NCBI RefSeq assembly: GCF_003054445.1
Contig: NC_042506.1
Coordinates: 1,185,501 to 1,249,500 of the forward strand
Length of the DNA stretch: 64,000 nt
Direction: 5' to 3'
Source: Pichia kudriavzevii
Taxonomy: Eukaryota > Ascomycota > Pichiomycetes > Pichiales > Pichiaceae
The first letter of the stretch is position 1. Every line of letters begins with the position of its first letter. Made by a program: the position numbers and the translations under genes. This document shows positions 12,886 through 52,150 of this stretch, in pieces. The notes below the pieces were generated by a model. That model did not search any database, had not been told where the DNA came from, and saw only the letters and a program-made list of their open reading frames with translations.

Positions 12886-14805
12886 ATGCGGACTAGTAAC
12901 AACGAAGACACGTCTTTGCAGCCACCACTGTACGAAAATGACAATGAAACATTGGTTGACATTTTACCATCGTTCCAGATGCATAACTTTATGTTAAACC
13001 GGCCAATTGACGATAAGGCCAATGTAGATCAACCTCCAAACTATGAAGACTCATCGACAATTGCATCAACAGTGGTGTCTAGACAAACTTCCCTTGATCC
13101 ATCAAACTTTCTTTTGAACAACCTAGACAAGCTACAAAAAATTAATATGCCTTTCAAAGCAGAGATCACGCTTACTGAGGAATTAAACAAAGTGGGTGTA
13201 CCCTTCAAACAGGCAAACCCCCTGAAAACCTACAAGCCGGGTGATATGGTTTACGGATTTGTTCTTTTCCAGAATCCAAACAACTTCCCAATTCCCTTTG
13301 AACAGGTGATGATCTCCATGGAATGTGATATTGGTACAGTTTCACCAAATGGTAAAGTCGTTAAAAAGAAAATCATAACGGCCTATGATTTAGAAGCCTC
13401 TTTCAACATGTATGGCGCAGAAGGAGATAACGATACTTATCATATGTTGGATCCATTGGATAAAAATTATCTTGGTTTCGAAAAGAGACGTTTGGATCCA
13501 AACATTCCTATCAAGAAGTTCTTCAAGTTCAGAATTCCTCATTATGTGTTGGATGATTGCTGTGATTCACAGCTTTGGGAGCATTTGAAAACACCACCGT
13601 CATTTGGATTGAATAAGAAAAGTGCTCGAAACACAGCCGCTGCTCTTAAAATCGACAATCATCTAGGATATGGAAGGTTTGATAACCCGTCTTCTCCTAT
13701 GGTTGTTAAGGATTATGCTCCCCCAAATCAATTTGTCTCCTTCTACATTAGTGCTCAATTCATTGGTAAGAAGTTGGATCTTTATAAACGTTTCTATACC
13801 AAGAGCACGCATCACAACTATGATTTCATTTTCTTGAAAAACGTGGAGCACCATTTCCGTGTCACTAGCTCAGTTCCAGAGGAAGAACCCATGCGATTGA
13901 TAAGCTCCACTGATGAGCAGCTACGATTGTTGGAGAATCAAGCAATTGAGGCTATTGAGGTCATGACTGAGCGGGGAATGTTGAACAAGGTCGGTGTCAC
14001 TGCATTGCAGGAGCAAGACGAAATTATTTTCAGCTCCAACGGAAAAGCAAAGCAACAGTATGATGTCACTGCTGATTCTATATGTAAAAAGTATAAACCA
14101 GATTTGTTCACTAAATCAGTCCAGATACACTTCAAGAAAGATTTATTTTCCAAGATGTCAGGTACATTAAATATTGAATTTCAAGTACGAGAAGCAGTGA
14201 AACTTCAATCCTTTTTACCTAGATTATTACAGCAGACAATTACTGCTTCGGAAATTGTACCACCCACAATCCAATTGTGTTTAGAGTTCATTTCTTCAGA
14301 TTTTGCCTCAAAGCCACCTTCAGTGCTAAAAATTGAACCTAACGTTATTGCTGTCGACTTAGAATCCCATTATTCGTTACCGGTTACTTTTGATAGCGAC
14401 TTTGTCCTGCAGGAAAGAAAGGCTGTCACTTCTACAATAACCAAGTTTGCCTTGTACTATAACAAGCTGAATTATATGGCCAAAGAGGGTAAATTTGTGG
14501 TTCCGAAAACTGTATACCATGCCTTGCGAGGCTTAGGGCATGCCAAGTACAATGAGACATATATTCCCCATGTTTTCAAAAATTACTTAATGACACCAAA
14601 GTGGGAATATGATTCCGTATCCCACAAATATAGGGCGTTCATAAGCTTGACTCTAGACTACGATAGCAAGGCATTACAATCCCAACCAAAAGCGTTAGTT
14701 CCAAGCTTCCAAACCTGCTTGATGGCAAGACTATACAAAGTCAGGATGGATGTCAAAATCAAGAAGAAGATGTTGTCCTCGTACTTGCCTGCTGTAGTTG
14801 TGTAG
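12886..14805 (+). CDS. BUL1/BUL2-like alpha-arrestin, Rsp5 ubiquitin-ligase adaptor (copy 1)
   Basis: 639 residues. The N-terminus has two PPxY motifs (PPLY 13-16, PPNY 50-53) that would bind WW domains of Rsp5, and the family's ILPSFQMHN. The arrestin-N region begins near NPLKTYKPGDMVYGFV (about 109) and continues to the Bul signature FRIPHYVLDDCCDSQLWEHL followed by PPSFGL (about 220-246). The C-terminal arrestin half ends near FQTCLMARLYKVRM. Bul proteins target plasma-membrane permeases for ubiquitination and endocytosis in response to nitrogen. It is shorter than S. cerevisiae Bul1 (about 976) but longer than its three neighbours. The reading frame is intact with ATG 12886. First of four direct tandem copies. 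Confidence 0.85.
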   Translation: MRTSNNEDTSLQPPLYENDNETLVDILPSFQMHNFMLNRPIDDKANVDQPPNYEDSSTIASTVVSRQTSLDPSNFLLNNLDKLQKINMPFKAEITLTEELNKVGVPFKQANPLKTYKPGDMVYGFVLFQNPNNFPIPFEQVMISMECDIGTVSPNGKVVKKKIITAYDLEASFNMYGAEGDNDTYHMLDPLDKNYLGFEKRRLDPNIPIKKFFKFRIPHYVLDDCCDSQLWEHLKTPPSFGLNKKSARNTAAALKIDNHLGYGRFDNPSSPMVVKDYAPPNQFVSFYISAQFIGKKLDLYKRFYTKSTHHNYDFIFLKNVEHHFRVTSSVPEEEPMRLISSTDEQLRLLENQAIEAIEVMTERGMLNKVGVTALQEQDEIIFSSNGKAKQQYDVTADSICKKYKPDLFTKSVQIHFKKDLFSKMSGTLNIEFQVREAVKLQSFLPRLLQQTITASEIVPPTIQLCLEFISSDFASKPPSVLKIEPNVIAVDLESHYSLPVTFDSDFVLQERKAVTSTITKFALYYNKLNYMAKEGKFVVPKTVYHALRGLGHAKYNETYIPHVFKNYLMTPKWEYDSVSHKYRAFISLTLDYDSKALQSQPKALVPSFQTCLMARLYKVRMDVKIKKKMLSSYLPAVVV

Positions 14806-15390: not shown

Positions 15391-17092
15391 ATGCTACCAT
15401 CTAAAAACCCAAACGATGAACTATACGATGTTTTGCCCTCGTATCAATTATATAACCAAATATACAACCGTGCGTTGCTTCCTAACAACAAATTTGGCGA
15501 ACTACCAGCTTACGAAGATGACTGTACAGAATCAGCCACAGCAGAAACTGAAAACTCCAGGTACAGTTCTTCAGTTAAATCGTTTAATCTTATCAACAAT
15601 ATTGACAAATTACCAAGGGTCAATGCTCCTTTGAAAACATCGATTGTCATAAATGACCCATTGAAAACATACCTACCAGGTGAGATCATTGCCGGTCACG
15701 TCAACCTTGAAAACTATGGCTCAGAAATTATCCCATTGGAACAACTTTTTGTCTCCTTGGACTGCGATGTTTCTATATTCAACTCTAAGTCTAATAAAGC
15801 TTATAGAAAAAACCTTGTTAGAATCGTAGACATGGAAGCATCTTTCCCTTTGCCATATCGACGACATGACTGGTGAAACCCTGATTTACCCGAAAAAGTC
15901 TCTAAGAGTGTACTTCAGTTTCAGGATCCCTCACTATATTTTAGATGATTGTTGCGATCACCAGCTTGTCGAACATTTGAAAGCACCGCCTTCTTTTGGT
16001 TTGAATTGCTTTGATTCCTTTAGTAAAAGGACTCAAATTGTTCATGATTTTGCTAAGTTTGGTGAGTTTGTAACTTATTCAATCAAAGCACAATTTATGG
16101 GCGAAAAATTGAACGCAAATGAACACGAATTTATTTTATTAAAGAAAACGCAACATGCGTTTAGAGTTGGAAAAGTACATCAACTTGATGATCATGTTCC
16201 CTTTGGCACTACAATTGAACAACTCAACACACTTGAGAAAGCTGTTTCTGATTCTATTGCTGAAATAAAGGAAAGAAAGATGCTTTCGGACATTGGAATT
16301 GAGAAGGAAAGTGATCAAAGTGACATACTTTATAGTTCAATTGGAAAGCAAAAATTCTCCTACAACGAGGATCCGGGTCAAATGACTGATTATTCAAAGT
16401 ATATGAATTTTGATTTTCCCAAATCTCTTTTCTCGTCTGTTTCTGGAGTTCTTGAAATCAAAATTCATATTGATAAGCTTGCAGCTCTTCCTGGCATTTA
16501 CGAACTTGATGACCTGAATTCTCTGTCAAATACTAGAGTACCCCCGGTAGTCGAATTAGATTTTGAGTTCAAACCAACTAAGCCAAAAAGCAGTTCACAT
16601 TGCCCTTCTTCAATTGATATCGAACCAGTGTTTTTTGCCGTTGATATGCAATCCGAAGGTAAGATACCTTTTGTTTTTGATAACTCATTTTTAGCAATGG
16701 ATAAAAGTGAAATTATGTCAAAGTTTGCTAAATTTAAAGCATATCATGATGAAATGACTAGGTTACAGGAAACTGGTGTCTGTGTTCCCAACTTTTTATC
16801 AGAGACCTTGATTTCGTTGAATCATTTTGTACACCATGAAACCCCTGTAAAGGACATCTTGGAAAGGCAAACTATAAAGTTAAATTGGAATTATGACCCA
16901 AACTCAAAATCGTTTAAATGTTTTGCAGATTTTCCGTTAAAGTATAACGTTGAAACACTCTCCAGCCAGAAGTTTACTCTAGTTCCAGGATTCCAAAACT
17001 GTCTTTTCGCAAGATTGTATAAGGTTTGTTTCAACATTAAAGCTGGAAATGGTAAATGTGAATCAGTATCGTTGCCAATCAGTGTTCACTAA
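15391..17092 (+). CDS. BUL-like arrestin adaptor (copy 2), two frames joined by a +1 shift
   Basis: Frame one runs 15391-15876 (161 residues) and ends four codons after TAT-CGA-CGA. Frame two is open in the +1 frame from before 15866 to the stop at 17092. Read with a +1 shift at CGA-CGA-C, it gives about 566 residues, colinear with intact copy 4 (567). Frame one has DVLPSYQLY, an LPAY motif (38-41, a variant PY site) and the arrestin-N start (LKTYLPGEIIAGHV). Frame two has GETLIYP, FRIPHYILDDCCDHQLVEHL, PPSFGL and the C-terminal FQNCLFARLYKV. Fourteen Arg codons outside the junction are AGA, AGG or CGT. CGA occurs only at the junction, twice. I read it as one gene with recoding. A recent pseudogene or sequence error is the alternative. 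Confidence 0.75.
15853..15876 (+). other. Candidate +1 ribosomal frameshift site, BUL-like copy 2
   Basis: Zero-frame codons are CCA TAT CGA CGA CAT GAC TGG TGA. Skipping one base after CGA-CGA enters ATG ACT GGT GAA ACC, which aligns with SETLLYP of copy 4 as GETLIYP. CGA is decoded by an inosine wobble pair, and CGA-CGA is a strong ribosome-stalling pair in S. cerevisiae. Recoding is inference. Confidence 0.6.
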
Positions 17093-18899
17093 ATAATTTT
17101 CTAAGAAAATAAGAAAAAAATAAGAAAAAAATAAAGTCACAGGATTTCTTATGACTTGTCTTGGTTTTTCTAGGTATATATATTTATGAATTCGTATATA
17201 ACATGCTATAATAAGTTGATTCCGTAAATTTTTAGTTAAAATGTTGATTATTAACATAGTATCTTCTTGGTGATTTTACCTAGTTGTTAAAAAAAAGATT
17301 ACGAACTCTGCAGTTTCAGCCTCGCAAATAAAATGCTACTTTCAGTAAAAGGTTTGAGTAGAAAATAATTTAAGGGCGCTTTACATACCCTAGAAGAAAC
17401 CCTTTAGTGATGTAACCATACCCATTTTCTCTAAATATACATGGACGTATGTGCTACTTGAATTTTACAAAAGATTTGTTTGTTGTTATTTTCTTTTTTC
17501 CCATAGTAAGTAGACAGTAATCATGTAAAGTAGCACCAGCTTTATTTATACAACCACTAAAAACGGAAATTACAAAATCGCTCTGGCGTTTCCTTTATGA
17601 CTTTCATCAACTCTTCCGAACCTCAGCAACATATACTATAACGTAAGGAGTAATTGAACAGCAAATCACACTTAAAAAGCACACATGAAATTCTAGCAGA
17701 GAATAAGTTGAAAACATTGATACGCAACTTTTTCCGTAGAATATATTGGGCCCTAATATAACCTGTGTTGTATACCATTCATGTGTAAAAGACACTTGGT
17801 TTGAGGTCAGTTTGGTTTCTCAGTGTAATCAGCAAAGGCTCGGAAAAAACCTTAAACCTGTTAATGTCGGTATTTATGATTTGTCATGCAGTTTAGTGTG
17901 CTTGTTTTCATGAAGAAATCATTTACTTTTCTTTTGCATGTTTTGTTGGAAAAAAAATATCTTTGACACATTTGGCGGAAAATGGTTCAATCTAACATTC
18001 GTACATTAATTTTTTCCTCTGAACACTACGGAAAACTTTAGAGTTTTTTTTCTGAAATGAGCTATTAGACAAAAATAGTACCAATTTAATAAATTAGTTG
18101 TTAAGAATTAATTGTTAAGCACTTCTATCACTTAGAGTTGAGAAACTGCCGTGACTCAAAGTATGTGGATTTAGTGGTCATGTTTTAGCTAAAATAACAA
18201 TTAAGGGATATCCCTAAAAAAGCATACTCTTTCTCTCAAAAACATCTACATTCTCTTTTCTATTACTCGGAAATAACAAAAATGACCTGCAGAATAAACT
18301 TCTCCCAGCTAAATTACCAGAACCACATTTCAGTGCCGCATAATAAAAAAAGAATGGTTATCCTTACTCGCACGGCGCAAACAACTGTTGCCCGGAGTTA
18401 ATACTAAAAGGCACCAAAAGCTGCAGTCCATAGCCAAAACTGTCCCCAATGTCATGGTTTGCCAAACATATCCGTCTTTCTAGCTCTGTTATACTCCTGC
18501 TTGTTAGTTAAAAGGAGGGGACTTAGAGCAAATACAAGAAAACTGAGTAACTTTTTGCTTCAAATAAGAGATTAGTCATCGGACTGGTGTAGACATTTGT
18601 CGTGATTGTCCAGTGGAATTTCACTCCCAATCCAGAACTTTCAGACAACCCTTTTTTTCTGTAAAACTCCATTGTCTAAAAAATTACTAATTATGTACCC
18701 TTACAAATCAGTCATTAATTAAAAAGTTGACTTGTATGCATAATAATTTACCCAGGTACCACTCTTATAAATTGATAGTTAGCAGTTTCTAGTTTCTCTG
18801 CTTCTCTTTCGCATAGTTATGCTTTTTCAATTCCGTTAGCTCTATCTAAACCAAAGGGAAAGTATACGCCTGACAAATAGTAGAAAATACCGTTCCGAG
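17093..18899. other. Intergenic between BUL-like copies 2 and 3
   Basis: 1.8 kb, AT-rich, no credible gene. A TATAAA at about 18766 precedes copy 3. No repeats of the flanking genes were seen. Confidence 0.55.
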
Positions 18900-20583
18900 A
18901 TGAATCCATTTTACGACATATTACCTTCATATCAGTTGGATAACCACATTTACAACTTTTCCTTATCTAATAAAGAACCACATTGCCAACCACCAAACTA
19001 TGAAGAGCTTTGTTTCTGTCCAATTTCTTCCGACAATCCGGTGCAGACTTCAATATTTCCCAGCAGTGCTATGAAACCCACCAACAATATTTCCAAGCCA
19101 AGACAAAAAAACTTGGCATTAAAGGCAAGCATAAGGTTGCAAAATTCCTCCACGACATTCACTCCGGGCGATACTATATTTGGCTATGTTCGAGTGAAGA
19201 ATGAATCCACAGCAATCATCTTACTGGAACAAGTAATTGTGTCCTTGGAATGTGAAATAGGAATGTTCAGTCACAGATATAATAAATTGGTCTCTCGCAA
19301 CATCATTAAAACGGTTGATTATGAAGCTTCTGTAAGACCACCTTATCGACGGCGTTGTTCCTAAAACCCTACTATATCCCAGTGAGTCAATTCAGTTTCA
19401 TTTTCAATTCAAAATTCCACACTACACACTTGATGATTGTTGCTCTCGCCAATTCATTGAGCATCTAAAATTGCCTCCATCCATGGGTCATCGGCATGTT
19501 AATGTTTCAGAGAAAAAACAAAATTGGGTAAACGATTTTGCCAAACCAGGAGAGTATGTGTCGTACTATTTACAGACAAGTTTTTTTGGCAGAGAAACCT
19601 ATATTGGCAAACAAAACAAACCGGAACCTGACTTATTCCAGGTAAAGAAGATATGCCATGAACTAAGGGTAGAATTGCGTTCACATGGGAATGATATTAC
19701 ATCAAATGGTACTACAATTGAGCAATTGAACGAAATCGAAAGATACGTAGTTAAATCAATTGCAGAGATGGAAGAGAGAAAGATGCTTTATGATATTGGG
19801 ATTGAGACAGAAAAAGAACAGTCAGACATTATAAACAGCACTCACAAAAAAGCAACATACCAGCTAAAAGAGGGCATTGTGGCATTATCTAAAGGAAACT
19901 GTATTGTGGACATTGATTTTAAAAAAGGCTTCTTTTCAAATGTTTCAGGTATCTTTACTATTATCCCCGAAATTTGCAAAATGAATACACTCCAAAGCTT
20001 CTATAAATTCGATTCTTCTTTCTCTCAGAACCTTCCCAAAGTTAAATTGGAGTTGGAATTCAAGCCTGCAAATCTAAGTGACAAGCCTGACTATCCAACG
20101 TTTATTGCCATCGAACCCACACTGGTAATTATAGATATACAGTCTGAAAAACATCTTCCTGTCGTTTTCGATGACTTTTTTTTACTTCACAATAAAAAAG
20201 AAATTGTCTCATACTTTAGCAAGTTTTTAGTCTACCTGTCTAAAGTTATAAAGCTTTCAAAGCAAGGTATTCCTGTTCCAACGCCCTTGATTAAGACATT
20301 AGATTCGTTAACGCACTTTGTTTACCAAGAAATACCAATAAGCGGTTTATTTAGAAAGCAAAATGTTAATTTGAGCTGGGAATACAATAGGTCCTTTAAA
20401 TCTTTCAGGAGTACAGTGGAAATACCTTTAGAATTTGACATTAAGAATATTACTAAGCATAAAATAACATTGTTGCCTGGATTTCAAACTTGTCTTTTTG
20501 CAAGGCTACATAAACTTGAATTAAACATCACAACCAAAACAGGTAAAGGTGGTGTTACTTTTTTACCTATACATGTTGTTTGA
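18900..20583 (+). CDS. BUL-like arrestin adaptor (copy 3), two frames joined by a +1 shift
   Basis: Frame one (18900-19364, 154 residues) has DILPSYQLD, a full PPNY (31-34) and the arrestin-N start (TFTPGDTIFGYV), and ends four codons after TAT-CGA-CGG. The +1 frame is open from the junction to 20583. It encodes PKTLLYP, FKIPHYTLDDCCSRQFIEHL, LPPSMG and the C-terminal FQTCLFARLHKLEL. The joined product is about 560 residues, matching copies 2 and 4. The junction sits at the same codon as in copy 2, though the two genes are well diverged. Only one other CGA codon was found in this gene. The first ATG of the second frame (19471) lies well inside the domain, so independent initiation would yield a truncated fold. 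Confidence 0.75.
19341..19364 (+). other. Candidate +1 ribosomal frameshift site, BUL-like copy 3
   Basis: Zero-frame codons are CCT TAT CGA CGG CGT TGT TCC TAA. Skipping one base after CGA-CGG gives GTT GTT CCT AAA ACC, which rejoins the family alignment. The first Arg codon is CGA and the following base is C, exactly as in copy 2. The stop is again the fourth codon after the pair, but TAA instead of TGA. Confidence 0.6.
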
Positions 20584-23500
20584 ACCGATAAAAAAAGAAA
20601 ACCCTTATGTTTTTAGTCTTTGTTTAATGATGATCAGCATAGTGTCAACGAGAATCTTAAAATTACCCGAGTTTTTTCAGGTCCTCTGTTAATGTAACTC
20701 TCTTTTTGTGTCACCTCGCAAACAAGAATCGCGAACTTACATCAAAAAAGCAACAGCTATATTGCCTGAAAGCTTGAATATGTCACATTTTATGTTGCAG
20801 TAGGATTTGTTACATCAAAATTATTATTTGAAAATCTTTTGATATTGACACAAATGGAGTTTGTAAACTCTTTTTGGCTACCAAGAATTGTACATTTTTT
20901 CAGGGGAGAAAACTTCAGCGGATGGTAACAATAATATTTAATTTGATTGTATAGATGGACAAGATTCGGAAGAAATGAGGCATTAAAAAAAAAGGCAATC
21001 GAGGTTACATTAGTGCAGCTCCTGTCAAGACAAAGTCAAATCCATACTTTACAACCTTTGAATAAAGAAATTTAAGGTTTTATTGAAAACCCTTTTTGTT
21101 TAAACGACCAGCGTACGAAATTTATACTTTTAAGTGAATAAAACTATTAATCTCCAACTATCGTTAGTTTATTTGCTTGAAAAGCAGTAACACTGGCTGA
21201 ACTAAGTTAAATCGTTTGCTAAAAGGATGGTTTAGAAGTGGTATTAACAGACCGAATTTGGAAATTTCCCCAAAACTTATTAAGACCAGACGGTTTCCTT
21301 ACGATAAAACTTCCGTTCTTCATTATTTACACCCGTCCACACGGGTGTACAGTAGCAATAAAAGGGAGATAACATGATACTGAGAATGTATCTTGAAAGG
21401 TTTGCTTATCTTGAGAGAAAAACCAACAGTATTCACCGAAAATACTTCTTTTGTTTCAAGAACATTTTGATTGTTTTTGTATACTTAACACTGTTATGCA
21501 GAAATGAGCCTAGAACTAGTTTACCTTTTCAGTATCTCAGTAGTAACTCAAAAGGATGGTTAGAATTGATCTCTAATCTATACATAGCAAAATAATGAGA
21601 TAGAAACAACTCTTCTGTTACAGTTTTATTTGTCTGATGCCAAAGGCTTTGTTTTTTGTTTTCAAAAATGCGTGTTTGCAAGAATGTTAAATGCAAAACT
21701 GACGATTAATTTTTATACTAACTAGTTGAAAAACTGTTTGGAAGGCACTTAAAATTTCGAGGTTCAACTAGAGATACCACCATGAGGAGAAGAAGCAATC
21801 AGCAGTTTTTTTTTACCTTCCTATGGACAATATCAATATTTCAAATAATCAGCAAAAGACGTAACTAGGTTAAGAAGTTGTCAGTATCCACCAAAGGTTC
21901 AGGAATTGTTATTTTTAAGTTGTTACTTCCGTTCAACTATACGATGTTTCAAACTGAAATGGATTAGTGGAATTTGAAGTACAAGTGGTTGGCATATTTT
22001 TTGGAGGAAGGGTGAGCAGCGACAGAGAATTAATGCTAGCAACAACTTTGCTGATGTTATTACTGCTTTCTAATTTGCCGTAGATGAAATAAAAATCAAG
22101 TAAAAAGACTCCAGCAAAGGACAGCAATATGGACATGATATTGATTTTGAATCCACAATTCAAAATCGACAAGATACATTAGTAAGAAGACGGTGTAGCT
22201 ACACAATCTACACAATGCCATGCACTTACTATATAAAATTAAAATTCTTATATTATGGGAGAACAATTTATTCGCCTTTAAGCTCTATGTATGCTACAAA
22301 TAATTTTGCCAATTATCTTTTTTTATGACTCACGTCTTTGAAGCAATAGTTAAAATTAGTTCCTTTGCAGTACATGCTTATTTTTTTGAAGATTATAGTG
22401 TAAACGTGAGAAGGTTGTATCTTTTGGCTTATATAATAGACAGTTTTATGAAATCACCAAAAAAATGATGATAATGTCTCCTACGTTTCAGACACGGTGA
22501 AAATGTAAAATATTAGTAATTATTGGATATTTGTTTGGGGTATTACAGGCATTTAAACAGATATGTGCATACCACGACCTTTATTAAAACGGCAAGTGTG
22601 GCTATTTCAAAGGTTAAACCAGGCTATGCAAAATCCCAATCCTACATGGATATCTACCAATCTAATTGTGACAGAAAGCCAGAAAAATTTGAGGTAGGCA
22701 CATTGAAAACTATCTAGTATCAGCTAAAATCTCCAAGCAAACTAGTGATGGAGTTTTTAGTGGTGCTTTGCACATCCCAAAGGAATGACATTTGTTCAAT
22801 CAGTAAAGGAAAGTTTGGGAGTCACTAGACTAAGAAAAAGTTATATTCCACAAATGACCACAGATTACCGAAGCTCTTAGATAGTGAACTCAAAAATCCT
22901 ACATTTTTATCCGTGTTTGGCTCAATCTCAACGAATCTTTCGGTGAAGTATGGATATATGCACTAATTTGTATTGTAAAGAAGATCCCTGGTAGAAGGTT
23001 AAGGATAGAGGGAGTTTGGAAACTTTTCACTCTACAGCTGGTATTTCCTCATCCAGACGGTAAGAACCAAAAGACAGTTAATGAGAAATCTATATAGCCG
23101 ATATTTATAGAGAGCCGACTCGCCAATGTGAACAAAAACTATTCAACATGAGTAATGCGAGAACAAATGACAAAGCTAATTACTATGCGAAGTATTACAA
23201 TGTACTTTTACAAAACCAAAAGCTGGCCAATGATTGGTTTATCTTGTGTAAGATGGAAACAAATTAAATCAATGGAAAAAGGATATACCTATCTCTGATG
23301 ACAGATTCCAAAGCACTCCTGTAGGAAATCTTCTGGAATCCATATGCGCTCTACATGTTCTTGTCAGTAAGAATCGAGACCGCGGCCAAAGACTAAGTCC
23401 GAGAGGTAAGAAAGTGCATTGTTTTAAAAAGTTTTTAAGGATGCACCTCAGAAAACTGTTGAAAGAAAAAGTATTTAGAGCCCCTTGAGACGGCCATCCG

Positions 23501-23900: not shown

Positions 23901-25604
23901 ATGCAATTAGTTAATGTTTGCGAAAGAGAGCAAATATACGACATATTGCCGTCTTTTCAGCTACATGATCACCTATACCATCGTCGTGTAGTTGAGAAGA
24001 ATGAAACAACAAATCCTCCAACCTACGAAGAAAATTTTTTGCTGGCTTCTCCTAATCAAAGAGCAAATCTCAGAAGCAGTTCACCAATTGAAGCACCTAA
24101 GCTTTTAGATTGTATTGATACACTACAGCAGGTAAATAAATCCATTGAGAGTGTGATTAAGTTGAAGTATCCCACAAAAGTCTATTCACCTGGAGAAATT
24201 ATTTCAGGTTACGTCCACTTAGAAAACAACGGTAACACAATTATTCCTATAGAGCAGATAGTTGTATCATTGGAGTGTGATGTTGGTATTTTTAGTCATA
24301 AGTATAACAAAGCAATTACAAAAACAATCATCAATATGATAGATTTAGAAGCATCAATTGTGCCTCCTTATCAACACCTTTCTGAAACCTTGCTCTATCC
24401 TAAAGCTTTTATGAAACAGTTTTTCCAATTTAGAATACCAAAGTACCTTCTTGATAACTGCTGCGAACGTCAATTGACTGAGCACATGAAGGTGCCACCA
24501 TCTTTTGGTTGCAAACATATTAACATTTCAGGAAAGAAAATTGATGAGGTTAAAGACTATGCAAAGCTTGGTGATTATGTTTCATATACTATAAAAGCGA
24601 AATTTATTGGTAAGACCCCACCTAATTATACAAATAAAGCGCATAAGTCAGATTTTGTACTTCTAGCTGGTGTCTTTCATGATTTCAAAGTAGGGACGCA
24701 TTTGACGTTTAGTGATCATATCCCGTATGGCACTACTAATGAGCAGTTATTTAATCTTGAAAAGTACGTTAGGGAGTCAATTGAAGAGCTGAAGGAAAAA
24801 AAGATGTTGTTTGACGTGGGGATTAAAGAGGAACATGATCAGATAGATATAATCTACAGTTCAGTAGGAAAGCATAAATGCCAAACCAATTGTGACTTGC
24901 AAGTTCCAAAGAAATCACAAGAAGTTACAACACGGGTAAGGAAGCCACTTTTTGGAACTGTATTAGGTAATATTAAAGCTACAGCTGACATTTCCGAATA
25001 TGTTACTATTCAGAGTTTTTTTGCATACTCACATACATCGTGTCCGTTGACCTACCCAAGCGTTACACTTTCCTTGGAATTTCAGCTAATCAATCAAAAG
25101 GATGTGAAGGGGATTCCTTCCATTATAACAATAGAGCCTGAAATAACTGCTGTTGACATACATGCAAATTATAAGCTACCAGTGGAGTTTGATAGTTCTT
25201 TTATCAGCTTGGGAAAAGAAAAAATAGTATCACAGTTTGATAAATTTAAGAGGCTGCAAGCTGAAGTAATAAAACTTTCTCAAGAGGGCCTGGATATCCA
25301 TCCACGACTATTTAAGCTATTGGATTCGTTAACTCAATTTGAATATAGTGAAACTAAACTTCCAAACCTATTCAAAAGGAAAACTTTAAACCTGGTTTGG
25401 AACTATGACTCAGCCAAAAAAAGCCTCCAATGCAATGTTAGGATGCCATTAGAGTTTAACTTCAAGGAAATTTTTAATAAAAAAATAACGTTAGTTCCTG
25501 GGTTTCAGCATTGTCTCTTTGGAAGAATGTACAAGTTGGAGCTACACTTTACAACAAAACATGGAAGGCTTAAACCAATGACACTCCCGATCACAGTTAT
25601 ATGA
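23901..25604 (+). CDS. BUL1/BUL2-like alpha-arrestin, Rsp5 adaptor (copy 4)
   Basis: 567 residues in one uninterrupted frame from ATG 23901. It has DILPSFQLHDHLY near residue 14 and PPTY (39-42) for Rsp5 WW domains. The arrestin-N start is near VYSPGEIISGYVHLENNG, with LEASIVPPYQHLSETLLYP spanning the point where copies 2 and 3 are split. The Bul signature follows as FRIPKYLLDNCCERQLTEHM and PPSFGC. The end FQHCLFGRMYKLEL is shared by all four copies. It serves as the intact reference for the two split copies: between the Tyr of PPY and the Glu of SET it has 12 bases where copies 2 and 3 have 16. Confidence 0.86.
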   Translation: MQLVNVCEREQIYDILPSFQLHDHLYHRRVVEKNETTNPPTYEENFLLASPNQRANLRSSSPIEAPKLLDCIDTLQQVNKSIESVIKLKYPTKVYSPGEIISGYVHLENNGNTIIPIEQIVVSLECDVGIFSHKYNKAITKTIINMIDLEASIVPPYQHLSETLLYPKAFMKQFFQFRIPKYLLDNCCERQLTEHMKVPPSFGCKHINISGKKIDEVKDYAKLGDYVSYTIKAKFIGKTPPNYTNKAHKSDFVLLAGVFHDFKVGTHLTFSDHIPYGTTNEQLFNLEKYVRESIEELKEKKMLFDVGIKEEHDQIDIIYSSVGKHKCQTNCDLQVPKKSQEVTTRVRKPLFGTVLGNIKATADISEYVTIQSFFAYSHTSCPLTYPSVTLSLEFQLINQKDVKGIPSIITIEPEITAVDIHANYKLPVEFDSSFISLGKEKIVSQFDKFKRLQAEVIKLSQEGLDIHPRLFKLLDSLTQFEYSETKLPNLFKRKTLNLVWNYDSAKKSLQCNVRMPLEFNFKEIFNKKITLVPGFQHCLFGRMYKLELHFTTKHGRLKPMTLPITVI

Positions 25605-45005: not shown

Positions 45006-46634
45006 ATGTTGAGTTTACCAGTTCTGGCCACCCTAATCAGTGCAATTTCTGCATTACCAATTGGTAGTGATTCACGTATTCCGTCTCCAACATCTTCAGA
45101 GGATCTCTTCCCCACTGATATTGGTTTCTTTGGTGTAACAGCCACCAATTCTGCACCTTTTATGGCACAAACAGACGGTGCAGCTATTACCTATGGCGTT
45201 CCAACTTCGTCTTATACATTGGCGCAGCCAATTGAAACCGCCATCCAGGCCAAGGACCACAGGGAAGGTGATCAAAACATTTTCCAGCTTATGGGTAATC
45301 TATCTCCATACTACATCAGTGATGGTTGGGGCGTCTACGACTACGCAATCCCAGGCCAATGCTCCATCTCACAAGTCCATTTGTTATCAAGACATGGTAG
45401 TAGATATCCAACAGATCCGCTGGTTATCGGTAAGTTGCTCGATAATAAGAATTACACGGTAACTGGTGAATTGGAATTTTTAAACGATTGGAAATATTTA
45501 CAAGGTGTTAATATTTTAACCAAGCTAGGTAACCAACAACTATTTGATAAGGGTGTTAGAACCTTCTTCAGGTATGGCCAATTGCAGGATTGGAATGAAG
45601 ATGCCGAAAAGATAGTAGCAAGGACGACATCACAGGAACGTATCACCTCAAGTGCGGAATACTTCCTTGCAGGGTTCTATGGTTTGGACTGGTATGACAA
45701 GGCCAATTTGGAAATTATTATTGAATCTAATGGATACAATGACACGCTTGCACCTTACGAGCATTGTCCGCTAACAGATAAAACTGAAGCTACTGCCTCT
45801 ATTCCAGCTGATGGATTCTTAGAGAAGTACACTAAGAAGGCAGTTGAAAGACTTAACAAACAGATCAAAGGTTTAACTTTTAATGCCAAGAGCATCCATC
45901 AAATGCAAGAACTATGCGCATACGAGACTAACAACAATGGCTTTTCCCACTTTTGCGGTTTATTTACTCAACAAGAATGGGAGGACTATGAATATTATAA
46001 CTCTTGGACTTGGTACAACAGCAATATGTTTGGCTCACCTAATGGCAGAGCTATGGGTGCTGGTTGGGTTGAGGAGTTTAAACAAAGATTGACAGATTCA
46101 AATGACTTTGATTGGAACACTTTAGCGTTACAAAACACTACCCTTGATACAAACCCAACATACTTCCCTGTTGACCAGAAGTTATACTTCGATTTTTCAC
46201 ATGACTCAGTTATTAGTAACATTTTTACTGCTCTTGGCATGGAGCAGTTCAAGACGAATTTCACCGTTGACGGATCTCTCAGAGAAACGAATTTCCAATT
46301 ATCAAAGGTTGTGCCATTTGCCTCACAGACATACTTTGAGATCATTGAATGTGATGGTGAGGTTTCAGCAAACAGAACGGAGCCAGAGACGAGCAGCAAC
46401 AGCACTACGGGCACTCCAAACAAGTATGTGCACATGATATTGAATGACCATACTATTGACTTGTCGAAGAACTTTCCGGAGTACTGCAGCCCAAGAGTGG
46501 ACGGATGGTGTGAATTTGATAGCTTTGTCAAATACCTGGACACGCTCTGGGAGGTTGCGGATTTTGAAGAGGCTTGCTTTAGTGGAACCTATAATACTAC
46601 CCAGATTGTCACCGATGGTGCACCAGAAAAGTAA
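45006..46634 (+). CDS. Secreted histidine acid phosphatase/phytase-like enzyme (copy 1)
   Basis: 542 residues. Signal peptide MLSLPVLATLISAISA, then catalytic LLSRHGSRYPT (RHG at about 129-131, nucleophile His) and the proton-donor HD in YFDFSHDSVI (near residue 398). DGWGVYDYAIPGQCSISQVH precedes the active site as in PHO5-type repressible acid phosphatases. Several N-glycosylation sequons (NYT, NDT, NTT, NRT) fit secretion to the periplasm or medium to free phosphate from organic esters. It is longer than S. cerevisiae Pho5 (467), mostly through an N-terminal extension. First of three tandem copies. Pho4-type sites and a TATA box upstream suggest induction on phosphate starvation. Confidence 0.9.
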   Translation: MLSLPVLATLISAISALPIGSDSRIPSPTSSEDLFPTDIGFFGVTATNSAPFMAQTDGAAITYGVPTSSYTLAQPIETAIQAKDHREGDQNIFQLMGNLSPYYISDGWGVYDYAIPGQCSISQVHLLSRHGSRYPTDPLVIGKLLDNKNYTVTGELEFLNDWKYLQGVNILTKLGNQQLFDKGVRTFFRYGQLQDWNEDAEKIVARTTSQERITSSAEYFLAGFYGLDWYDKANLEIIIESNGYNDTLAPYEHCPLTDKTEATASIPADGFLEKYTKKAVERLNKQIKGLTFNAKSIHQMQELCAYETNNNGFSHFCGLFTQQEWEDYEYYNSWTWYNSNMFGSPNGRAMGAGWVEEFKQRLTDSNDFDWNTLALQNTTLDTNPTYFPVDQKLYFDFSHDSVISNIFTALGMEQFKTNFTVDGSLRETNFQLSKVVPFASQTYFEIIECDGEVSANRTEPETSSNSTTGTPNKYVHMILNDHTIDLSKNFPEYCSPRVDGWCEFDSFVKYLDTLWEVADFEEACFSGTYNTTQIVTDGAPEK

Positions 46635-48214: not shown

Positions 48215-49843
48215 ATGCTACAATTACCAGTGTTAGTTACTTTGGTTAGTGCAGTTTCAGGATTACCAATTGGTAGTGATTCACTCATTGCAACTTCTAC
48301 ATCTACAGAAGAGCTCTTTCCAACAGATATTGGCTATTATGGTAAGACTGGGACAAGTATTGCACCTTTTATGGCACAAACAGACGGTGCAGCTATTACC
48401 TATGGCGTTCCAACTTCGTCTTATACATTGGCGCAGCCAATTGAAACCGCCATCCAGGCCAAGGACCACAGGGAAGGTGATCAAAACATTTTCCAGCTTA
48501 TGGGCAGTCATTCTCCATACTACATCAGTGATGGTTGGGGCGTCTACGACTACGCAATCCCAGGCCAATGCTCCATCTCACAAGTCCATTTGTTATCAAG
48601 ACATGGTAGTAGATATCCAACAGGTTCAATAGAAACAGCTGAATTGTTGTCAAAGAAGAACTATTCAGTCAATGGTGAACTAGAGTTTCTAAAGGACTGG
48701 AAATATTCGGAAGGTGTTGGTGTTTTGACCAAACTTGGTAATCAACAATTGTTTGATAAGGGAGTCAGGACGTTCTTCAGATATGGCCAATTGCAGGACT
48801 GGAATGAAGATGCCATGAAGATTGTGGCAAGAACGACATCTCAGGAGCGTATGACTTTTAGTGCGGAATACTTCCTTGCAGGGTTCTATGGTTTAGACTG
48901 GCACGACAAGGCCAATTTGGAGATTATCATTGAGGACAAGGGGTACAATAATACACTGTCTCCAAAGTACGCATGTGATATAAAATCCAAGACTGAAGAA
49001 ACGACTAGAGATGTTACAACTCCGTTGCTTGAGAGATACACAAAAAAGGCTGTTGAAAGGCTCAATAATCAAATAGAAGGTATTAGATTTAGTGCTGAAA
49101 ACATCTATGAAATGCAGGATTTATGTGCATATGAGACAAACAATAATGGGTTTTCCCACTTTTGTGGTTTGTTCACTCAACAGGAATGGGAGGATTATGA
49201 ATACTATAACTCTTGGGTTTGGTACAACAAAAACATGTTTGGTTCGTCTAACAGCAGAGCTAAAGGAGTTGGCTGGGTTGAAGAGTTCAAACAAAGACTA
49301 ACAGGATCAAGCAAGTTTAACTGGGAGACACTAGCTTCCCAGAACACTACTCTTGATACGAATCCAACATATTTTCCCGTTGACCAGAAGCTTTACTTTG
49401 ATTTTTCACATGATACGGTAATCACTCATATTTTTACTGCTCTTGGCATGGAGCAGTTCAAGACGAATTTCACCGTTGACGGATCTCTCAGAGAAACGAA
49501 TTTCCAATTATCAAAGGTTGTGCCATTTGCCTCACAGACATACTTTGAGATCATTGAATGTGATGGTGAGGTTTCAGCAAACAGAACGGAGCCAGAGACG
49601 AGCAGCAACAGCACTACGGGCACTCCAAACAAGTATGTGCACATGATATTGAATGACCATACTATTGACTTGTCGAAGAACTTTCCGGAGTACTGCAGCC
49701 CAAGAGTGGACGGATGGTGTGAATTTGATAGCTTTGTCAAATACCTGGACACGCTCTGGGAGGTTGCGGATTTTGAAGAGGCTTGCTTTAGTGGAACCTA
49801 TAATACTACCCAGATTGTCACCGATGGTGCACCCAACATATAG
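48215..49843 (+). CDS. Secreted histidine acid phosphatase/phytase-like enzyme (copy 2)
   Basis: 542 residues, same architecture as copy 1: signal peptide MLQLPVLVTLVSAVSG, LLSRHGSRYPT and FDFSHDTVITH. Nucleotides 48362-48623 match copy 1 with about four differences (around the codons after QLMG). 48731-48935 match copy 3 without a visible difference, and 49430-49833 match copy 1 exactly as far as I can see. Between these blocks the gene is clearly diverged, for example KYACDIKSKTEETTRDVTTP in place of the copy 1 sequence. The mosaic implies gene conversion with both neighbours. Active-site residues are intact, so the enzyme should be functional. Confidence 0.9.
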   Translation: MLQLPVLVTLVSAVSGLPIGSDSLIATSTSTEELFPTDIGYYGKTGTSIAPFMAQTDGAAITYGVPTSSYTLAQPIETAIQAKDHREGDQNIFQLMGSHSPYYISDGWGVYDYAIPGQCSISQVHLLSRHGSRYPTGSIETAELLSKKNYSVNGELEFLKDWKYSEGVGVLTKLGNQQLFDKGVRTFFRYGQLQDWNEDAMKIVARTTSQERMTFSAEYFLAGFYGLDWHDKANLEIIIEDKGYNNTLSPKYACDIKSKTEETTRDVTTPLLERYTKKAVERLNNQIEGIRFSAENIYEMQDLCAYETNNNGFSHFCGLFTQQEWEDYEYYNSWVWYNKNMFGSSNSRAKGVGWVEEFKQRLTGSSKFNWETLASQNTTLDTNPTYFPVDQKLYFDFSHDTVITHIFTALGMEQFKTNFTVDGSLRETNFQLSKVVPFASQTYFEIIECDGEVSANRTEPETSSNSTTGTPNKYVHMILNDHTIDLSKNFPEYCSPRVDGWCEFDSFVKYLDTLWEVADFEEACFSGTYNTTQIVTDGAPNI

Positions 49844-50521: not shown

Positions 50522-52150
50522 ATGCAGAAATTATTGTTACTAGCTACCTCAATTACTACTATTTCTGCATTACCAATAGGCATTGATACCCCGGTTGCCA
50601 ATGTTACCTTGTCAGAGGATTTGTTCCCCACCGATATTGGGTTTCTTGGGAAAACAGCTACAGCTGATGCTCCATTCCTAGCGGAAACCAATGGTGCGGC
50701 AATTACCTATGGTGTTCCGACATCTTCTTATACATTGCCACAGCCAATTGAGACAGCTATCCAAGCTAGAGACCATAGGAATGGCGACCAAAATATCTAT
50801 GAGTTATTTGGAAGTTTATCTCCTTATTATGTTAGTGATGGTTGGGGGGTTTATGATTACGGATTACCCAAACAGTGTTCGATTAACCAGGTTCATGTTT
50901 TATCAAGGCATGGAAGTAGGTACCCAACAAGCCCAAACAGTTTAAGTAAGTTACTTTCGCATAAGAATTACACCGTATCGGGGGAATTGGAGTTTCTAAA
51001 CAATTGGAAGTATTTACAGGGATCGGGAATCTTAACAAAACTTGGTAATCAACAATTGTTTGATAAGGGAGTCAGGACGTTCTTCAGATATGGCCAATTG
51101 CAGGACTGGAATGAAGATGCCATGAAGATTGTGGCAAGAACGACATCTCAGGAGCGTATGACTTTTAGTGCGGAATACTTCCTTGCAGGGTTCTATGGTT
51201 TAGACTGGCACGACAAGGCCAATTTGGAGATTATCATTGAGGCAAAAGGTTTTAACAATTCCCTCGTACCTTACGAGAATTGTCCTCTTAATGGAAAGAC
51301 GTATGCCATTGCCCCATTATCAGCAGATGGTTTTCTTGAAAAGTATACCATGAAAGCGGTAGATAGACTCAACAGCCAAGCTGAAGGAATCGTATTTGAT
51401 GCTAAAAGTGTGAAAGAAATGCAGGATTTATGCGCATACGAGACTAACAACAATGGCTTTTCCCACTTTTGTGGTTTGTTCACTCAACAGGAATGGGAGG
51501 ACTATGAATATTATAACTCTTGGACTTGGTACAACAGCAATATGTTTGGCTCACCAAATGGCAGAGCTATTGGAATAAGTTGGGTTGAAGAGTTCAAACA
51601 AAGACTAACAGGATCAAGTAAGTTTAACTGGGAGACATTAGGGTTGCAAAACACCACCCTTGATGCAAACCCAACATACTTCCCTGTTGACCAGAAGTTA
51701 TACTTCGATTTCTCACATGATTCTATCATTACTAGTATTTTTACTGCTCTTGGCATGGAGCAGTTCAAGACGAATTTCACCGTTGACGGATCTCTCAGAG
51801 AAACGAATTTCCAATTATCAAAGGTTGTGCCATTTGCCTCACAGACATACTTTGAGATCATTGAATGTGATGGTGAGGTTTCAGCAAACAGAACGGAGCC
51901 AGAGACGAGCAGCAACAGCACTACGGGCACTCCAAACAAGTATGTGCACATGATATTGAATGACCATACTATTGACTTGTCGAAGAACTTTCCGGAGTAC
52001 TGCAGCCCAAGAGTGGACGGATGGTGTGAATTTGATAGCTTTGTCAAATACCTGGACACGCTCTGGGAGGTTGCGGATTTTGAAGAGGCTTGCTTTAGTG
52101 GAACCTATAACACTACCCAGATTGTTAAAAACGGTGCCCCAAACTCGTAG
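50522..52150 (+). CDS. Secreted histidine acid phosphatase/phytase-like enzyme (copy 3)
   Basis: 542 residues with signal peptide MQKLLLLATSITTISA, VLSRHGSRYPT and FDFSHDSIITS. The N-terminal third is the most diverged of the three (LAETNGAAITYGVP, YDYGLPKQCSINQVHV). 51038-51242 match copy 2 without a visible difference, and the last part (51737-52110) matches both copies. Active-site motifs are intact. The promoter lacks CACGTG, so expression probably differs from its sisters. It converges on HEM13 with 243 bp between stops. Confidence 0.9.
   Translation: MQKLLLLATSITTISALPIGIDTPVANVTLSEDLFPTDIGFLGKTATADAPFLAETNGAAITYGVPTSSYTLPQPIETAIQARDHRNGDQNIYELFGSLSPYYVSDGWGVYDYGLPKQCSINQVHVLSRHGSRYPTSPNSLSKLLSHKNYTVSGELEFLNNWKYLQGSGILTKLGNQQLFDKGVRTFFRYGQLQDWNEDAMKIVARTTSQERMTFSAEYFLAGFYGLDWHDKANLEIIIEAKGFNNSLVPYENCPLNGKTYAIAPLSADGFLEKYTMKAVDRLNSQAEGIVFDAKSVKEMQDLCAYETNNNGFSHFCGLFTQQEWEDYEYYNSWTWYNSNMFGSPNGRAIGISWVEEFKQRLTGSSKFNWETLGLQNTTLDANPTYFPVDQKLYFDFSHDSIITSIFTALGMEQFKTNFTVDGSLRETNFQLSKVVPFASQTYFEIIECDGEVSANRTEPETSSNSTTGTPNKYVHMILNDHTIDLSKNFPEYCSPRVDGWCEFDSFVKYLDTLWEVADFEEACFSGTYNTTQIVKNGAPNS

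Follow-up and report, generated by a model that had tools for sequence, protein, structure and literature searches.

In Saccharomyces cerevisiae, +1 frameshifting has been described for ABP140, EST3, OAZ1, YFS1 and LLP1 and for Ty1/Ty3, where overlapping frames combine with a scarce transfer RNA (tRNA) for the aminoacyl (A) site and a plentiful tRNA for the +1 codon. The S. cerevisiae sites given in the portions of these papers considered here are CUU-AGG-C, CUU-AGU-U, GCG-UGA-C and GCG-AGU-U, and none of these places CGA in the peptidyl (P) site of a chromosomal gene (PMC12719033, PMC12661321). Three Kazachstania YFS1 genes use CUU-CGG-C. A second kind of +1 shift occurs at CGA-CGG-C and CGA-CGA, where it is an error observed above all in mbf1/asc1 strains of S. 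cerevisiae, which lack this quality control, in reporters or native fragments (PMC6301793). Finally, S. cerevisiae BUL3 (YNR069C/YNR068C) is a BUL gene that lies in two frames and is reported to yield a longer product by recoding, its parts being separated by a stop that reportedly is bypassed (PMC10968208, PMC9105457). Here we describe a locus of Pichia kudriavzevii that touches on all of these cases. It lies in a window of 64,000 nucleotides (the whole stretch of DNA that was analysed; assembly GCF_003054445.1, contig NC_042506.1, positions 1,185,501 to 1,249,500) and contains four BUL-like genes in tandem, two of which, copies 2 and 3, are broken at a common CGA-CGR-C heptamer (R stands for A or G). 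We consider it highly probable that both are functional BUL-type arrestin genes and that +1 ribosomal frameshifting at this heptamer gives rise to their full-length proteins.

The four genes are all encoded on the + strand (12886-14805, 15391-17092, 18900-20583 and 23901-25604) of a genome that comprises 10,791,929 bases in five contigs. Copy 1, our comparison gene (639 residues, identified as an open reading frame (ORF) and by Pfam), and copy 4 (567 residues, identified by ORF, Pfam and profile comparison) are intact, and so are two more BUL-like genes on contig C3 that encode 744 and 730 residues. The Pfam domains Bul1_N and Bul1_C (PF04425/PF04426) were matched in all four copies of the window, in copies 2 and 3 only with the +1 frame joined or with the halves searched apart. 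The respective scores for Bul1_N and Bul1_C were 71.4 and 36.3 bits for P0001 and 58.3 and 32.2 bits for P0002, the curated cut-offs being 28.7 and 24.2 bits. Copies 2 and 3 thus possess the domains of a Bul1-type alpha-arrestin, which their separate halves match as well, and they resemble BUL1/BUL2 not only in both domains but also in PY-like motifs, as each N half contains two predicted Rsp5-binding motifs of the type [L/P]PxY.

In copy 2, the zero-frame ORF1 (15391-15876, +) specifies an N half of 161 residues with LPSY at residue 15 and LPAY at residue 38, matches Bul1_N with an E value of 1.9e-13 and ends with TGA at 15874. An open +1 frame stretches from 15830 up to the stop at 17090, and the +1-frame ORF2 (15863-17092, +; 409 codons) encodes the C half with the remainder of Bul1_N and Bul1_C. 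Copy 3 is built in the same way, with a zero-frame ORF1 (18900-19364, +) for an N half of 154 residues (LPSY at 8, PPNY at 31; Bul1_N E value 8.2e-10) that ends with TAA at 19362, a +1 frame that is open from 19336 to the stop at 20581 and a +1-frame ORF2 (19351-20583, +) of 410 codons for the C half. Because the +1 frame opens only at 15830 and 19336, a shift is confined to overlaps of 47 and 29 bases, respectively. These overlaps contain the heptamers CGA-CGA-C (15859-15865, +) in copy 2 and CGA-CGG-C (19347-19353, +) in copy 3. By analogy with the work on S. cerevisiae (PMC6301793, as far as this source was covered), the base skipped would be 15862 in copy 2, with GAC at 15863-15865 as the +1 codon, and 19350 in copy 3, with GGC at 19351-19353. 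An initial annotation of this DNA had claimed that the two genes are split into two long frames at the same codon, in the contexts TAT-CGA-CGA-C and TAT-CGA-CGG-C, and the junctions indeed read CCA TAT CGA CGA CAT GAC TGG TGA and CCT TAT CGA CGG CGT TGT TCC TAA, with TAT CAA CAC CTT TCT at the equivalent place of copy 4. Its further details proved accurate, too: in both copies the zero-frame stop is the fourth codon past the CGA-CGR pair, 16 bases lie between TAT and the next aligned codon compared to 12 in copy 4, the junction CGA is the sole CGA among 15 arginine codons in copy 2 while copy 3 has one other, and the long +1 frames run without a stop. Two features of the surroundings may be added. 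At the second position past the heptamer, both copies have T (15866-15867; 19354-19355), which may be chance; in YFS1 a U is conserved two bases 3' of the shift site (PMC12719033, in the part consulted). Furthermore, the shift site falls in a loop (alignment columns about 214-238) that is of variable length, since copy 1 and the genes on C3 contain some 20 residues there that are missing in copies 2-4.

The sequence downstream of the junctions is conserved as protein specifically in the +1 frame. After the junction, copies 2 and 3 exhibit 51 and 37 stops in the zero frame and 24 and 23 in the third frame but none in the +1 frame. A profile built from the four intact relatives matched the +1-frame C halves with E values of 5.1e-88 (copy 2) and 2.6e-82 (copy 3) and the N halves with 1.6e-36 and 6e-27, while none of the wrong frames of these two copies scored better than 0.3. 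Copies 2-4 are 37-41% identical to each other, and identity is much the same on the two sides of the junction (36.7% before and 41.2% after for copies 2 and 3, 40.9% and 40.3% for copies 2 and 4, 38.7% and 41.0% for copies 3 and 4). When compared with copy 1, the downstream part is less identical (33.0-34.6%) than the upstream part (37.8-39.5%); this is a pattern of the family because intact copy 4 behaves likewise (39.5% before and 33.0% after the equivalent junction). Divergence at synonymous sites (dS) among copies 2, 3 and 4 is saturated in five of six comparisons and amounts to 2.67 in the sixth, and we therefore report the proportions of nonsynonymous and synonymous differences (pN and pS) instead of dN/dS. 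The separate comparison of the two sides, which the initial annotation had proposed, yielded similar pN values of 0.355-0.416 upstream and 0.376-0.383 downstream. Of the 105 alignment columns that are invariant in the four copies of the window, 77 lie downstream of the junction. In simulations of neutral decay, in which substitutions were introduced into the C half of copy 2 (500 runs per level), 0.3 changes per site lowered identity to 51% and produced 11.7 stops on average, with not one of 500 runs free of stops, and already at 0.1 changes per site merely 0.6% of the runs remained stop-free. The real copies 2 and 3, at 41% identity, have no stop in their +1-frame C halves. These data suggest that the C halves of both genes are under selection at the protein level.

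In the sequence sampled, the site itself is rare in such a setting, and further genes with it may exist elsewhere in the genome. As a background we used 314 kb (264 kb plus 50 kb, both strands; 2.9% of the 10.79 Mb genome) composed of the window, a stretch from C3 and 24 other stretches of 10 kb. CGACGRC occurred 16 times (14 in the 264 kb and two in the 50 kb), and the only two occurrences flanked by 100 or more open codons on each side, in frame 0 before and in frame +1 after the site, are the two junctions. CGA accounts for 7.3% of arginine codons. No in-frame CGA-CGA or CGA-CGG was present in 65,218 codons of 90 ORFs, an absence that is not significant with 0.46 expected, nor in 10,134 codons of 21 further ORFs. 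From 14 heptamers per 528,000 positions and about 15 and 9 in-frame places, the chance of finding the heptamer in both overlaps is approximately 1e-7, an estimate that takes the heptamer as given and assumes independence between the paralogs, which is not the case. Six further overlapping frame pairs of at least 120 codons were detected in the 264 kb, with downstream frames of 122-150 codons.

The heptamer of copy 3 is identical to the one proven to shift in S. cerevisiae, and copy 2 shares the codon pair; direction and joint product (Arg followed by the +1 codon) would agree as well. In S. cerevisiae without Mbf1/Asc1, CGA-CGG-C is needed for an efficient shift, the ribosome slips by +1 while CGA occupies the P site, the product was identified as Arg-Gly by mass spectrometry, and extra tRNA-Gly(GCC) raises while extra tRNA-Arg(CCG) lowers the yield (PMC6301793). 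The statement of the initial annotation that CGA-CGR pairs slip by +1 when quality control fails is thus borne out by this source, in the part consulted. Gcn1, Gcn20 and Hel2 also hold shifting back, and eEF3 favours it (PMC8848926). At the Ty3 site, only a few codons, CGA among them, can stand in for GCG in the P site, and re-pairing in the +1 frame is not realistic there (PMC5009743); likewise, the ICG anticodon would probably lack first-base pairing to GAC or GGC. The tRNA genes of P. kudriavzevii, counted by pattern and ARAGORN (genes with introns or unusual features escape the patterns), comprise two for Arg(ICG) (two of four pattern matches passed ARAGORN) and one for Arg(CCG) (one of seven passed); none of the four matches for Arg(UCG) passed. 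Eleven alike genes among 12 matches were counted for Gly(GCC) and eight among 14 for Asp(GUC), one locus of each having been checked by ARAGORN. Judged by gene number, a slow A-site codon thus competes with a plentiful +1 tRNA in both cases (one versus 11 genes in copy 3, two versus eight in copy 2). We propose that peptidyl-tRNA-Arg(ICG) would be held on CGA through an I:A wobble pair while the following zero-frame codon, CGA or CGG, would be decoded slowly, so that the abundant tRNA-Asp(GUC) or tRNA-Gly(GCC) could enter one base downstream on GAC or GGC. Translation would then continue in the +1 frame after Arg-Asp (copy 2) or Arg-Gly (copy 3) and result in proteins of 566 and 560 residues, respectively. 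Ribosomes that do not shift would stop four codons on and release a form of 161 or 154 residues with the PY-like motifs and a partial Bul1_N. That shifting takes place in P. kudriavzevii, how efficient it is and whether any use is made of the short form are matters of inference, and the same holds for a regulated shift and a useful short form as put forward in the initial annotation. Its central claim, that a full reading of both genes needs a +1 shift at the common CGA-CGR-C, is well upheld by the frame-specific conservation, the saturated synonymous sites, the match to a heptamer tested in S. cerevisiae, the tRNA set and the absence of signs of an intron or error.

Several observations weigh against frameshifting at the heptamer. 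Mbf1, which in S. cerevisiae represses shifting at such codon pairs, is encoded in this genome, with K64, I85 and R89 at the positions mutated in Mbf1 K64E, I85T and R89K (PMC6301793, PMC8848926), the numbering having been carried over without alignment to the S. cerevisiae protein. In S. cerevisiae with Mbf1, no shift was detectable at CGA repeats (cited in PMC6301793), and for both reasons it is uncertain how efficiently a normal cell would shift. Six folds did not reveal a downstream RNA stimulator (z scores of -0.40 to 0.62). Moreover, a shift elsewhere in the 47- or 29-base overlap, or a shift by -2, yields the identical frame. It may be that a low yield is enough, that this yeast or these genes provide something extra, or that Mbf1 is overcome in some condition.

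Other explanations for the broken frames were also weighed. The N and C halves might be made as two chains if ribosomes reinitiate at a +1-frame ATG. Copy 2 has such an ATG at 15866, within the overlap, but in copy 3 the first one is located at 19483, and a start there would leave out the part equivalent to positions 158-201 of copy 2, with 17 of the 105 invariant columns; with homology continuous across the junction in both copies, we regard split genes as improbable. Pseudogenes with an inherited or coincident frame break are very improbable in our judgement. Copies apparently do die at this locus, as what looks like the decayed remnant of a BUL-like C-terminus lies at 21588 on the + strand, but the open, conserved C halves of 409 and 410 codons, free of stops despite saturated dS, speak against a pseudogene as well as against a sequencing error, and the pattern of selection on both sides of the junction matches that in intact copy 4.

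A small intron, or editing, that joins the frames at the RNA level could be suspected from GTAAGA at 19332, close upstream of the junction in copy 3. TACTAAC, however, is absent from copies 2 and 3, which contain the looser CTAAC/CTGAC only at 15482, 19628 and 20087, and P. kudriavzevii branch sites are said to resemble those of S. cerevisiae (PMC6053246, in the part consulted). As none of the five kinds of donor-like site that were looked for occurs in copy 2 before 16659 and the aligned residues reach the junction from both sides with just 4 bases more than in copy 4, this explanation appears highly improbable. An assembly or sequencing error is hardly conceivable at all: although a single assembly is the basis for both junctions, they occupy the identical place in two genes without a homopolymer, and the species reference, likely the assembly used here, was built from 115x PacBio and 35x Illumina reads and corrected for indels (PMC6053246). 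Stop readthrough as in BUL3 was rejected because homology downstream lies in the +1 frame and 51 and 37 stops interrupt the zero frame. Reading of a fixed four-base codon was set aside on the reasoning that other genes would be altered.

In short, +1 frameshifting at CGA-CGR-C would place copies 2 and 3 beside several known systems without making them identical to any. With ABP140, EST3, OAZ1, YFS1, LLP1 and Ty1/Ty3 they share the overlapping frames and the tRNA imbalance, and with YFS1 also a conserved heptamer and an ancient origin (PMC12719033, PMC12661321), here seen as a shift heptamer common to two paralogs. They resemble BUL3, whose split nature and presumed need for stop readthrough the initial annotation had pointed out in agreement with the publications, but would require a +1 shift where BUL3 has a stop to be passed. 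In contrast to the mbf1/asc1 case, the full protein would depend on the arrangement, and Mbf1 is encoded. In the open-access literature, to which our search was confined, no natural gene dependent on CGA-CGR-C was found. For P. kudriavzevii itself, the genome publication notes a -1 shift in Ty3-like elements, and a BUL case was not met in the part consulted (PMC6053246). A search of a protein database with read-through copy 2 scored 7,997 candidates, none at E <= 0.001, and 29 pattern stretches from a genome contig collection and 72 from viral contigs comprised no relative. As these collections seemingly do not include fungal relatives, nothing about orthologs follows. An antizyme search intended as positive control gave no match and was itself uninformative, and among solved structures two matches were at chance level (E values of 0.59 and 0.66).

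Copies 2-4 form one group of the tree without a settled branching order, so that copy 4 may have lost the shift or never had one. Between copies 3 and 4, the tentative relic of a BUL C-terminus (FQKCVFARM) extends over 21588-21719 (+) and aligns best at 21633-21719, with an E value of 0.0039 among 422 intergenic peptides when the profile of the four window copies is used and of 1.6 and 4.5 with tblastn alone; it may hint at the fate of a BUL copy freed from selection. Elsewhere in the window, three tandem ORFs of 542 residues each are present on the + strand (45006-46634, 48215-49843 and 50522-52150), which resemble histidine acid phosphatases in having an RHGSRYP motif. Aligned by position, they are 53-64% identical in one 150-base stretch and 95-100% identical in the last two, a pattern such as gene conversion would probably leave.

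In gene lists of P. kudriavzevii, copies 2 and 3 may be carried as fragments or pseudogenes. We also consider it possible, albeit rather doubtful, that frameshifting of the collision type is used on purpose here: the speed of CGA/CGG decoding together with Mbf1-Gcn1-Hel2 would set the amount of a full-length Rsp5 adaptor, permease sorting would respond to the supply of arginine tRNA or to collisions, and the short PY form could act as a competitor. The locus raises the question of whether such frameshifting is physiological and how enough of it could occur in a cell with Mbf1. CGA-CGR pairs are studied as places at which the frame is protected by quality control; that two diverged genes keep CGA-CGR-C, with selection acting on what comes after it, suggests that slippage at such pairs may also be something on which cells depend.

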